Made by a program: the position numbers and the translations under genes
The notes under the pieces: model-generated
The model's database searches: none
What the model was told of the DNA's origin: nothing
Seen by the model: the letters and a program-made list of their open reading frames with translations, nothing else
DNA from: Bacteroidales bacterium
GTDB taxonomy: Bacteria; Bacteroidota; Bacteroidia; Bacteroidales; F082
Direction of reading: 5' to 3'
Length of the DNA: 33,502 bases
NCBI GenBank assembly: GCA_017616735.1
Contig: JAFZXP010000055.1
Span: 1 to 33,502 of the forward strand
Shown: positions 22,066-24,411 of the stretch, piece by piece
Numbering within the stretch: the stretch's first letter is position 1
Layout: the number at the start of each line of letters is the position of its first letter

Positions 22066-22527
22066 TTAGTGCAGCTGATAGTTTTTCATTCTATCCTCGG
22101 CCATCTTTTCGTATTGAGTGCCTTTGCGGCCATAATTCACGTAGGGATGTATGCTGATGCCTCCACGCGGGACGAACAGCCCGACCACCTCGATGTAGCG
22201 CGGATCCATAAGCTTTACCAAGTCGTCAAGTATGATGTTGATGACATCCTCATGGAAATCGCCATGATTTCTGAAAGAAAACAAGTACAATTTCAAGCTC
22301 TTGCTTTCCACCATTTTCTTGTCGGGAATGTACAAAATCTTGATTTCGCCAAAATCAGGCTGGCCTGTGATTGGGCACAAAGCTGTGAACTCAGGGCAGT
22401 TGAACTGCACCCAGTAGTCGCGGTCAGGATGACGGTTTTCGAAGGCTTCGAGAATCTCGGGGGCATAAGTCTCGGGGATTTCCGCCTTGCGGCCTAATGA
22501 TTGCAAATTATCTTTTTCTCTATTCAT
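22066..22527 (-). CDS. queF: QueF, NADPH-dependent 7-cyano-7-deazaguanine reductase
   Basis: Reduces the nitrile preQ0 to the amine preQ1, the last step of the free-base part of queuosine synthesis. Short, single-domain form (153 aa). The nucleophile Cys51 lies in [14 protein letters not shown] with Asp58; the QueF signature [20 protein letters not shown] (74-93) holds the NADPH- and substrate-binding residues. Located 2 bases after queE in the que operon under the preQ1 riboswitch at 24109-24144. Confidence 0.96.
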
Positions 22528-22529
22528 AA

Positions 22530-23123
22530 CTATCTGATATTTAATATTTTATGCGTTTGCAACGAAAGCCGCCACTCGGGATGCTCTTTGCAAAATTCTA
22601 TTGTTTTATTGATTATTTCTTTGTTTTTCTCAGCGTCGCCGGTGTCGCATGGCTGAAGGAAACGGTGGGCGACGTTGATGTTGGCGTATCGGGAGACAAT
22701 GTGCGCATCGTCTCTACCGTCATATACCAATTTCAATTCGTCGGCATTTTTCAAAATCGGCATCGCATTTTCGCCCAGAAACATATCTTTCGGCGAGAGT
22801 GTGATCCAATCGACGTTTTTAGGCAATTCAACGGTGCCGTTGGTCTCGACAGCCACTGTTTTTCCTAATAAATGCAGCATTTCCACCAACGATTCGGTCA
22901 GTTGCAGCGCAGGCTCGCCACCTGTCACCACCACCAGCTGCGCCTTGTAACGTGACACCTCCTCGATGATGTCGCCTTCGGTCATCTCCTTGCCCTCGGC
23001 GTGATTTGTGTCGCAAAAGGGGCATTGCAGATTGCATCCGCTGAAACGGATGAACACGGCCGGCGTCCCGGTGTTGAAACCCTCGCCCTGCAGCGAATAG
23101 AATATCTCGTTGACGCGCATCAT
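22530..23123 (-). CDS. queE: QueE, 7-carboxy-7-deazaguanine synthase (radical SAM)
   Basis: Radical SAM enzyme that contracts 6-carboxytetrahydropterin to 7-carboxy-7-deazaguanine. The iron-sulfur cluster motif CNLQCPFC has the CX3CX2C spacing (Cys30, 34 and 37), preceded by FYSLQGEG, which is typical for QueE. Also seen are the GGEPAL motif and a late strand LSLQTHKI. 197 aa is within the normal range. The first ATG overlaps the queD stop by 4 bases; a second ATG follows directly. Confidence 0.96.
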
Positions 23124-23455
23124 TCGTCTATTTCGTAAGTAGCGATATTGCCAGTAGTCTCTTGAACATCAACGCGATAGCAATTAGTGATTTGGCCACA
23201 GCACCAGCGGGCAATGTTCTCGGCCGTAGGGTTGCACTTGAGCACATCGTTAACGACCTTATGATCCAACGCATCGACAATGCGGCGTTTTATCTCCGAA
23301 AAATCGACCACCATGCCGTTTTTGTCGAGTTCCTTGGCCTTGCAGTAGATGGTGATAATCCAGTTATGCCCGTGCAACGAGCAGCATTTGCTGGGATAAT
23401 CGAGCGTCAGCTGATGTGCGCCCGCCACTTCTATGGTTTTTTTGATGTAGTACAT
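23120..23455 (-). CDS. queD: QueD, 6-carboxytetrahydropterin synthase
   Basis: Converts dihydroneopterin triphosphate to 6-carboxytetrahydropterin. Zinc ligands are His14 (GAHQL), His28 and His30 in CCSLHGHNW; the catalytic Cys is Cys24 by its CX3HGH spacing. 111 aa is the usual size. The start codon region overlaps the queC stop, so the operon is tightly coupled here. Confidence 0.95.
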   Translation of the reverse strand: MYYIKKTIEVAGAHQLTLDYPSKCCSLHGHNWIITIYCKAKELDKNGMVVDFSEIKRRIVDALDHKVVNDVLKCNPTAENIARWCCGQITNCYRVDVQETTGNIATYEIDE

Positions 23456-24105
23456 TAGTCTTCGTAGTTTGTTGGGTCAATAATTCCGGCTTCTTGGAAA
23501 GCCTCTTTTCGTTCCTGACAGGTGCCGCAGCGGCCGCAATGCTGTGCTTTGCCACGATAGCACGAATACGTCTTGCTGTAGTCGATGCCGAGTGCGACGC
23601 CGCGTTTCACTATGTCGCCTTTTGTGATGTTTGTGTAAGGGGCTGCCAGTTGCACTCCTTCGTAAGTGCCGGCTGTCATAGCTGCATCCATCGCCTTCAC
23701 AAACTCAGGACGGCAGTCGGGATAGATGGCGTGGTCGCCGCCGTGGTTGGCAATCAATACACGTTTCAGCTTGCGGCTTTCGGCCAGTCCGCAGGCCACC
23801 GAAAGCATGATGCCGTTGCGGAAAGGCACTACAGTGCTGCGCATATTCTCGTCGTCGTAATTCCCTTCGGGTATGGCATCAGCGCCCGATGTCAGCGACG
23901 AGTCGAAATATTTGCCGATAAATCCCAGATTGATTACTATATGCTCTATGCCCAGATGCTGGCAATGCCAACGAGCACAGGCAATCTCGCGCTCAGCGTG
24001 GTTGCTGCCGTAGTCGAATGTGACGGCCAATGCAATCCGCTCGCGCTCTTCGTACAAAAGCGTGGTGGAGTCTAATCCGCCAGAATAAATGATAATTGAA
24101 TCCAT
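23455..24105 (-). CDS. queC: QueC, 7-cyano-7-deazaguanine (preQ0) synthase
   Basis: ATP-dependent enzyme turning 7-carboxy-7-deazaguanine into preQ0. PP-loop motif YSGGLDSTT (7-15) and a C-terminal zinc site of four cysteines in SCYRGKAQHCGRCGTC. 216 aa. First gene of the que operon. The leader holds a preQ1 class I aptamer whose pseudoknot ends 3 bases before this ATG, so preQ1 should reduce its translation. folE, queA and tgt, needed before and after these steps, are not in the window. Confidence 0.96.
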   Translation of the reverse strand: MDSIIIYSGGLDSTTLLYEERERIALAVTFDYGSNHAEREIACARWHCQHLGIEHIVINLGFIGKYFDSSLTSGADAIPEGNYDDENMRSTVVPFRNGIMLSVACGLAESRKLKRVLIANHGGDHAIYPDCRPEFVKAMDAAMTAGTYEGVQLAAPYTNITKGDIVKRGVALGIDYSKTYSCYRGKAQHCGRCGTCQERKEAFQEAGIIDPTNYED

Positions 24106-24108
24106 TGT

Positions 24109-24144
24109 CTTGTTTTGTTAAAGGGGGTTGTCAAGTACCCCTGG
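24109..24144 (-). promoter_or_regulatory. Class I preQ1 riboswitch controlling queC
   Basis: On the minus strand: P1 is AGGGG (24142-24138) pairing with CCCCU (24126-24122), an 11-base loop beginning UACUUG and ending ACAAC, then the A-rich tail UUAACAAAACAAG (24121-24109). The tail is identical, as I recall it, to that of the well-known Thermoanaerobacter class I preQ1 aptamer. The required H-type pseudoknot P2 is present: CUUG (24135-24132) pairs with CAAG (24112-24109). A conserved C ends the loop. The gene controlled is queC, the right pathway. The tail ends 3 bases before ATG, so preQ1 binding should block ribosome entry. Confidence 0.9.
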
Positions 24145-24152
24145 TTTCATCG

Positions 24153-24186
24153 AACAAAGACCCATAGTCAACCTACGGGTCTTGTT
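24153..24186 (-). terminator. Strong hairpin between DUF2795 gene and que leader
   Basis: Inverted repeat with 11 paired bases around the loop GTTGA (24168-24172): AAGACCCGTAG with CTATGGGTCTT (one G-T pair), plus three further outer pairs after one bulged base. On the minus strand it starts 4 bases after the DUF2795 stop codon, and its 3' arm ends UCUUUGUU, so it is a likely terminator for that gene. It works almost equally well when read on the plus strand, where TTGTTTAATT follows. It may also shield the riboswitch from read-through. Confidence 0.65.
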
Positions 24187-24189
24187 TAA

Positions 24190-24411
24190 TTAATATTCGT
24201 CTTCGTGGAAGAAGAAGTCATCCTTTGTAGGATAATCAGGCCAAAGGTCTTCGATACGCTCGTAAACATCGCCCTCATCCTCTATCTCCTGCAAATTCTC
24301 AATCACCTCCTGCGGTGCGCCAGTTCTCATAGCCCACTCAAGAAGCTCGTCTCTTGTTGCCGGCCATGGAGCATCCTCCATTTTCGACGCTAATTCTAAT
24401 GTCCAATACAT
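24190..24411 (-). CDS. DUF2795-like small acidic protein
   Basis: 73 aa, very acidic. Begins MYWTLELASKMEDAPWPATRDELLEWAMRTGAP and ends in an acid and aromatic tail (FFFHEDEY). The first two thirds fit DUF2795, a short conserved family of unknown function common in Bacteroidota. It has its own promoter element at 24438-24445 and is followed by a strong hairpin. Confidence 0.75.
   Translation of the reverse strand: MYWTLELASKMEDAPWPATRDELLEWAMRTGAPQEVIENLQEIEDEGDVYERIEDLWPDYPTKDDFFFHEDEY

Follow-up and report, generated by a model that had tools for sequence, protein, structure and literature searches.

The window analysed here, that is, the whole stretch of 33,502 nucleotides from a Bacteroidales bacterium, carries on its minus strand the operon queC-queD-queE-queF (24105-22066), whose start codon is directly preceded by a small predicted RNA element. 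The features concerned, with the basis of each assignment, are as follows:

24155..24162, minus strand: GGTCTTTG, a degenerate candidate for the -7 box, 12 nt upstream of P1 (sequence)
24109..24142, minus strand: predicted class I type II preQ1 aptamer, an H-type pseudoknot, whole (sequence; RF00522, 22.2 bits; models R1 and R2; covariation in relatives)
24138..24142, minus strand: P1 5' strand AGGGG, A24142-G24138 (sequence; P1 covaries in relatives)
24132..24135, minus strand: P2 5' strand CUUG, C24135-G24132 (sequence; variant pairs in relatives)
24127..24128, minus strand: AC dinucleotide 5' of the P1 3' strand, with C24127 as the expected specificity base (sequence; type II signature, rule in PMC11625349)
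24122..24126, minus strand: P1 3' strand CCCCU, C24126-U24122 (sequence)
24113..24121, minus strand: L3, the A-rich tail UUAACAAAA, which presumably doubles as the A-rich landing stretch (sequence; A-rich start context of the window genes)
24109..24112, minus strand: P2 3' strand CAAG, C24112-G24109, queC positions -4 to -7 (sequence)
24103..24105, minus strand: queC AUG, 3 nt 3' of the aptamer (sequence)
23455..24105, minus strand: queC, 7-cyano-7-deazaguanine synthase (TIGR00364, 179.7 bits, cut-off 150.3)
23120..23455, minus strand: queD, 6-carboxytetrahydropterin synthase (TIGR03367, 84.7 bits, just under the cut-off of 89.25)
22530..23123, minus strand: queE, 7-carboxy-7-deazaguanine synthase (best match TIGR04508, 173.8 bits, below the cut-off of 240)
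22066..22527, minus strand: queF, preQ1 synthase, which makes the presumed ligand (TIGR03139, 179.7 bits, cut-off 86.9)

Family searches also found tgt and queA, both above cut-off, elsewhere in the source genome, and a de novo queuosine pathway with QueF making preQ1 is predicted from this gene content. No match to yhhQ (PF02592) was found in the source genome, an absence that is weak evidence because the genome is 80.5% complete. Upstream of the queC leader, AAGACCC...GGGTCTT forms a strong hairpin that has a short T-rich tail; it lies at 24183-24157 on the minus strand, just after the DUF2795 gene (24193-24411), is probably the terminator of that gene, and overlaps the degenerate -7 box.

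Read directly from the minus strand, the queC leader runs AGGGG-UA-CUUG-ACAAC-CCCCU-UUAACAAAA-CAAG-ACA-AUG. A preliminary description of this DNA had proposed a class I preQ1 aptamer at this place, and its parts were recovered: P1 pairs AGGGG with CCCCU (24142-24138 with 24126-24122), P2 pairs CUUG with CAAG (24135-24132 with 24112-24109), and the A-rich tail on the 3' side of P1 reads UUAACAAAACAAG. The distance of 3 bases to the start codon given there is exact, with CAAG ending at 24109, the spacer ACA and the AUG at 24105-24103. Its assignment to class I is borne out and can be narrowed to type II, for which the accessible part of PMC11625349 gives the rule of an AC immediately before the P1 3' strand. 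In the window L1 is UA and L2 is ACAAC, which ends in AC ahead of the P1 3' strand (AAC followed by CCCCU); L3 is A-rich (UUAACAAAA), and an H-type pseudoknot of P1 and P2 is indicated by the pairs of the window, by the covariation of P1 and by the P2 pair types in 54 related leaders. The features of the other two types were not found in the window, which has AC and UA in place of the UC before the P1 3' strand and the UU atop the P1 5' strand of type I, and CAAGA and UA in place of the AAGG Shine-Dalgarno (SD) sequence paired in P2 and the UU at the P1 5' strand of type III. The element fits the class I type II preQ1 riboswitches, and ligand binding and regulation are predicted for it. Taken by itself, the pairing is only moderately surprising: eight Watson-Crick pairs of the same topology, ending at most 7 nt from the AUG, arose in 75 cases when the 75-nt leader was dinucleotide-shuffled 20,000 times, and in 96 of 5,000 shuffles of the window leader when no position was required. 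Chance pairing is ruled out by the conserved pseudoknot in relatives.

In a lenient scan, RF00522 was the best Rfam match at the queC leader (24147-24104, 22.2 bits, E 0.013 for 211 nt), and among the 16 matches that RF00522 has in the source genome at E up to 10, the window locus ranks first (E 0.03; runner-up 17.8 bits). The search with this model had been proposed in the preliminary description; the match falls exactly at the queC AUG and is the best of the genome, but its score stays below the gathering score of 39 bits, which is a threshold of the curators and no biological feature, and a scan of the whole window at gathering gave no Rfam matches. RF00522 likewise returned none of 20 yhhQ leaders at E up to 1, 18 of which meet the pseudoknot descriptor described below, and at gathering none of the 11 loci with the window-like form. 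Across 345 Bacteroidota genomes it gave 16 matches at E up to 0.05, with a single one above gathering (L061), which by eye apparently precedes a yhhQ-like gene; most of the other 15 were judged, by eye alone, not to be aptamers.

Two further models, R1 (built from the window and eight close queC leaders) and R2, gave the window 69.9 and 38.5 bits, respectively, scores to be read with the window being among the sequences of both. Of 99 genomes of the genus, R1 matched 18, namely 11 before queC and 7 before yhhQ-like transporters, and the only one of these seven put to a family search (L053) is Vut_1. Across 344 genomes of the order it gave seven matches; one of them (L060) has no P1 and was discarded as chance. 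R2, which was built partly from the same Bacteroidales genomes later scanned with it, matched 48 of 295 Bacteroidales genomes and 30 of 183 genera, which suggests that a large group escapes the public Rfam model. In 395 Bacteroidota genomes it gave eight matches, six of them in Bacteroidales; the two outside (G564 and G591) were counted as chance, the downstream frame having no recognised queuosine gene. Seven genomes held two R2 matches each, and the second match in these, together with one in G303, in which the yhhQ search gave no match, precedes in 8/8 cases a queC-like frame with SGGQDSTTC. The one downstream protein of the eight submitted to a family search (L308) is QueC (TIGR00364, 254 bits, cut-off 150.3). 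The queC-like start lies 3-6 nt after CAAG in L304, L305, L306 and L308. In L301, L302, L303 and L307 the aptamer lies 71-169 nt from it, with no clear terminator.

Within the genus, a queC match was found in 69 of 99 genomes. In 11 of them queC is at least 88% identical to that of the window, and the aptamer precedes its start in all 11. A second kind of queC, 64-66% identical, had no such motif in the 19 leaders read (L012, L013, L022-L038) of the 58 remaining genomes, and in several of these the upstream sequence resembles, by eye, the end of a queF frame. From one species of this genus to another, the one kind of queC seems to alternate with the other. Of 60 genomes sampled from the family, 5 had queC, all of them of the genus of the window.

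The element extends well beyond the genus. The pattern CTTGN{2,3}AACN5TTAACAAAACAAG, scanned over GTDB species genomes, gave at least 119 loci, and the 80 for which taxon names were available are all Bacteroidales or Bacteroidota. They include Prevotella denticola and P. histicola, in both cases before yhhQ, and many uncultured, largely rumen, genomes. Among the 119 motif loci listed, the next gene is yhhQ in 80, queC in 32 and queF in 6; yhhQ and queC were called by blastp against the window QueC and one YhhQ, and the six QueF by translation, five of them above the cut-off of 86.9 and the sixth (L090, 73.3) with its frame cut by the end of the locus. In the remaining one (L134) the contig ends after 9 codons, too early to type the next gene. 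Of the 119 loci listed, 118 precede one of these three genes, as does the element of the window, which places the element in leaders of genes for queuosine synthesis or salvage. CAAG and the start codon are 2-5 nt apart in 114 of the 119 loci listed (0, 0, 6, 7 and 14 nt in the others), and the aptamer ends 0-7 nt from the AUG in 118. The AUG-abutting design free of an SD site that the preliminary description had put forward for queC is shared by many Bacteroidales, which have it ahead of yhhQ, queC or queF. A phage origin was discarded, the pattern having no matches in viral_contigs. Five yhhQ aptamers (L100, L121, L124, L184 and L190) carry loop insertions of 25, 25, 25, 76 and 32 nt, respectively, which separate one CUUG from a further CUUG-N-AAC, the first CUUG of L184 being within a strong inserted hairpin. 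In these five either CUUG could pair with the tail, and the insert may modulate P2 or compete with it.

Leaders chosen without regard to the motif were also studied. Of 344 Bacteroidales genomes, 137 gave a yhhQ match, and the leaders were taken for 83 of the 84 matches down to E 7e-19 (L196-L278), G390 being left out on account of a match that starts at residue 42. The pseudoknot descriptor, which demanded at least 50% A in L3 and the C of the AC dinucleotide but not its A, ended at most 7 nt from the AUG in 55 of the 83 leaders vs. 42 of 4,150 shuffles. Almost all of these belong to the close yhhQ homologues (54/61 leaders vs. 37/3,050 shuffles), while the remote ones gave 1/22 vs. 5/1,100; it must be noted that the line between the two, placed between E 1.8e-57 (L256) and E 2.8e-48 (L257, with a yhhQ 46% identical and without the aptamer), was drawn after the leaders were read. 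Among the close leaders that miss the descriptor, L208, L234, L237 and L256 have P1 and, by eye, three P2 pairs; L253 has a complete P1 and CUUG, with CAAG about 40 nt further, right before the AUG, and thus a long tail insertion; L255 is decayed, and no aptamer was seen in L198. A loose version of the descriptor selected 57 of the 83 leaders, from which L198, L270 and L272 were then dropped as chance fits. Two of the yhhQ matches carry stops, three in L250 (G232:C39) and one in L224 (G178), and their leader aptamers still fit the descriptor.

In the 54 descriptor-selected aptamers, P1 occurs as CGUG/CACG, CGAG/CUCG, UGAG/CUCG, AGUG/CACU, AGAG/CUCU, GGAG/CUCC, GGUG/CACC and GGGG/CCCC. P2 occurs as CUUG/CAAG, AUUG/CAAU (5), UUCU/AGGA (2) and, once each, CUAG/CUAG, AUUC/GAAU, UUCU/GGAA and UUCC/GGAA. 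The full pairing of P2 in this set is by construction because the descriptor demands it, so that only the variety of pair types counts. The failure of relatives to keep P1 and P2, which the preliminary description had named as the finding that would speak against it, does not apply to most of them: 54 of the 61 close yhhQ leaders keep both helices, with letters changed and pairing kept. The dinucleotide before the P1 3' strand is AC in 51 of the 54 and CC in 3, the first base of L1 is U in all 54, and the loop-closing pair of P1 (G5-C16 in Thermoanaerobacter tengcongensis, Tte) is G-C in all 54, which agrees with type II. P2 ends 1-6 nt from the AUG throughout.

Covariation was measured on a MAFFT alignment (A2) of 46 sequences, comprising 40 of the 45 distinct yhhQ-leader aptamers, 5 of the 49 distinct motif-locus aptamers and the window. 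For P1, 97.8% of the cells are paired (75.1% in shuffles), 29 cells are changed on both sides (6.2 in shuffles), and the covariation value is 0.550 vs. 0.119 in shuffles and at most 0.210 in slid helices. Two of the five measures on A2 do not exceed the shuffles, namely the pairs in which both sides change (3 vs. 2.1, reached in 62 of 500) and the further pair types (7 vs. 6.0, reached in 165 of 500). The loop-closing G-C is present in 42 of the 46 rows, the other four being probably mis-registered UUCU/UUCC rows. Since A2 mis-registers the rows of UUCU/AGGA type and the P2 3' strand, P2 was counted by segments. Both P1 and P2 show compensating changes in relatives. Shifted or changed forms of P2 (AUUG/CAAU, UUCU/AGGA, UUCC/GGAA, CUAG/CUAG) were seen in L199, L201, L202, L206, L210, L231, L238 and L248-L251, so that a good model of this group needs a pseudoknot-aware alignment.

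With respect to the start context, the absence of an SD site noted in the preliminary description was confirmed, as there are zero SD-like 4-mers in the 20 nt 5' of the queC AUG, and hence no such site in the window leader for the pseudoknot to occlude. A core SD (GGAG/GAGG) was found within 20 nt in none of the 118 motif loci listed with a start at most 7 nt away, and in 2 of the 54 yhhQ leaders. Of the former, 91 have A at -6 and 72 have A at -3; the queC leader of the window has A at -3, -6 and -13 and C at -12. Gene starts of the window were placed automatically at the first ATG of long frames, some of them perhaps wrongly; of these 29 starts, 13 have A at -3, 13 at -6, 13 at -12 and 16 at -13. 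An SD site partially occluded as in Tte, with the AAG of CAAG and a following G serving as a weak SD, is a most improbable explanation. AAGG/AGGA-like 4-mers do occur in the last 20 nt of 12 of the 118 motif loci listed and of 8 of the 54 yhhQ leaders, and the Tte riboswitch sequesters the first two bases of its SD (PMC3905878, in the part available). That SD is a real one, whereas the window reads CAAGACAAUG, without any SD-like 4-mer, and its P2 stops 3 nt short of the AUG; CAAG is followed by A in 102 of the 118 motif loci listed, and an SD-like 4-mer accompanies only 3 of the 29 automatically placed window gene starts. In addition, the two to four nucleotides left before the AUG are too few for a working SD.

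The sequences upstream of P1 bear on the length of the transcript. TAnnTTTG, which we take to be the consensus of the -7 box, was found within 80 nt upstream of P1 in 89 of the 116 motif loci listed with enough upstream sequence, in 86 of the 116 at 11-25 nt, compared with 74 of 2,380 stretches drawn at random from these loci. With a box at that distance in most of them, the leader probably comprises little beyond the aptamer, which suggests that in most relatives transcription would start from a few to about 20 nt before it. The window does not have the strict TAnnTTTG, and therefore the position of its 5' end is uncertain.

From the pairing, the conservation and the gene context, we consider it very probable that a class I type II preQ1 riboswitch represses the translation of queCDEF by feedback, without a Shine-Dalgarno sequence. 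In the ligand-free state the 3' tail would be largely single-stranded and, being rich in A and free of structure, would serve as a landing strip immediately 5' of the AUG. As preQ1 accumulates, P2 (CUUG/CAAG) would close at -4 to -7 and L3 would dock along P1 at -8 to -16. The strip up to 3 nt before the AUG would then be taken into a compact pseudoknot and initiation would be blocked, so that preQ1 would hold back its own synthesis. We infer here preQ1 as the ligand, expression being off on binding, and occlusion of the A-rich strip as the cause. In Flavobacterium johnsoniae, adenines at -3, -6, -12 and -13 and a weakly structured start region favour initiation, and the A-rich part is a possible binding site of bS1 (PMC6847099, in the part available); with P2 covering -4 to -7 and L3 covering -8 to -16, the ligand-bound pseudoknot would hide just this region. 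It must be considered that the A-rich tail as landing site is not independent evidence, because the aptamer requires an A-rich tail anyway. Repression of initiation is also favoured by what is described in the accessible text of PMC11625349: S1 has more difficulty in unfolding the type II pseudoknot once the ligand is bound, and the class I type I riboswitch of Carnobacterium, which represses initiation mainly via the pseudoknot rather than the SD, still works, although reduced, with the SD moved up to 10 nt away. That riboswitch differs from the window in binding two preQ1 and in having UC, instead of AC, before the P1 3' strand.

Two other readings of the fold must be weighed. In the first, which we regard as unlikely, the element would act on transcription, with the ligand-bound pseudoknot inducing or relieving a pause of RNA polymerase, or with lost coupling leading to termination inside queC, so that the mRNA would be controlled. 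The class I type II riboswitch of Bacillus subtilis, which shares with the window the fold, the type and a queCDEF operon, controls transcription through a terminator, with pseudoknot-stabilised pausing (PMC11625349, in the part available), and at the four Bacteroidales loci with the aptamer 71-169 nt before queC (L301, L302, L303 and L307) direct occlusion cannot apply. Against this, no terminator was seen after the aptamer in the fold of the window from -50 to +40, and there is no room for one where the aptamer ends 0-7 nt from the AUG (118 of the 119 motif loci listed) or 1-6 nt from it (the 54 yhhQ leaders). The second, to which we give a very small probability, is that the fold is conserved for another queuosine compound (preQ0 or queuine) or as an element read by a protein. 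That the downstream genes include a transporter (yhhQ) besides synthesis genes, and that preQ0-bound Tte structures exist (according to the accessible part of PMC11625349), would agree with it; the type II signature, including AC and the P1-closing G-C, the latter in 54/54 descriptor-selected aptamers, and an operon that ends in queF, which makes preQ1, argue for preQ1 as the ligand of the proposed translational riboswitch.

Among the known systems, the Tte riboswitch is similar in the H-type pseudoknot, in the AC before the P1 3' strand and in the control of translation, here inferred. Its tail is UUAACAAAACAAGG. The C insertion described for that tail in the accessible part of PMC3905878 has its counterpart here in an A-rich tail likewise with an internal C. 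The class I type III riboswitch of E. coli yhhQ shares with most of the relatives found here the target gene family, but it fully buries an AAGG SD, and the queC leader of the window has none; type III is, moreover, almost exclusive to Pseudomonadota (both from the available portion of PMC11625349). With regard to the phylum, the TPP riboswitches of Bacteroides, a different riboswitch class, regulate transcription or translation according to the title of a 2019 preprint in the available part of PMC7366714, so that a translational riboswitch in Bacteroidota is not without precedent.

The preliminary description had suggested that the mechanism would be widened if this phylum were poorly covered. 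This stands only in part: preQ1 riboswitches were considered in 2013 to be mostly limited to Firmicutes (PMC3766115, in the part available), but class I types I and II have already been reported from Bacteroidota (PMC11625349, likewise); it is the Rfam model that misses the forms found here. No description of an AUG-abutting, SD-free preQ1 arrangement in Bacteroidota was found in the literature searched, mostly outside subscription journals, nor was such an arrangement found in the accessible portions of PMC2258182, PMC6593275, PMC6847099, PMC7366714, PMC3766115, PMC3905878 and PMC11625349, and the paper on the B. thetaiotaomicron transcriptome does not mention preQ1 in its main text. The present group is less ordinary than the known type II riboswitches in that P2 abuts the AUG, a core SD is nearly absent and Rfam misses 20/20 of the yhhQ-leader relatives tested.

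Beyond the queC locus, we think it likely, with somewhat less confidence than for the feedback on queCDEF itself, that an expression platform widespread among the Bacteroidales exists, in which a preQ1 pseudoknot of about 30-34 nt, placed 0-7 nt before the AUG in a leader hardly longer than the aptamer, would use its own tail as the initiation region and block it without an SD. How translational riboswitches act in bacteria that hardly use SD sites is a question for which the queC leader offers a minimal case: aptamer, presumed landing site and AUG lie within 40 nt, allowing a clean test of the control of SD-free initiation. A 2024 review considered the finding of riboswitches in mRNAs without an SD a challenge and predicted their existence (PMC11625349, in the part available). 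If the reading given here is true, the Bacteroidales would hold the kind of riboswitch predicted there for organisms without SD sites, overlooked by SD-based searches and by Rfam.
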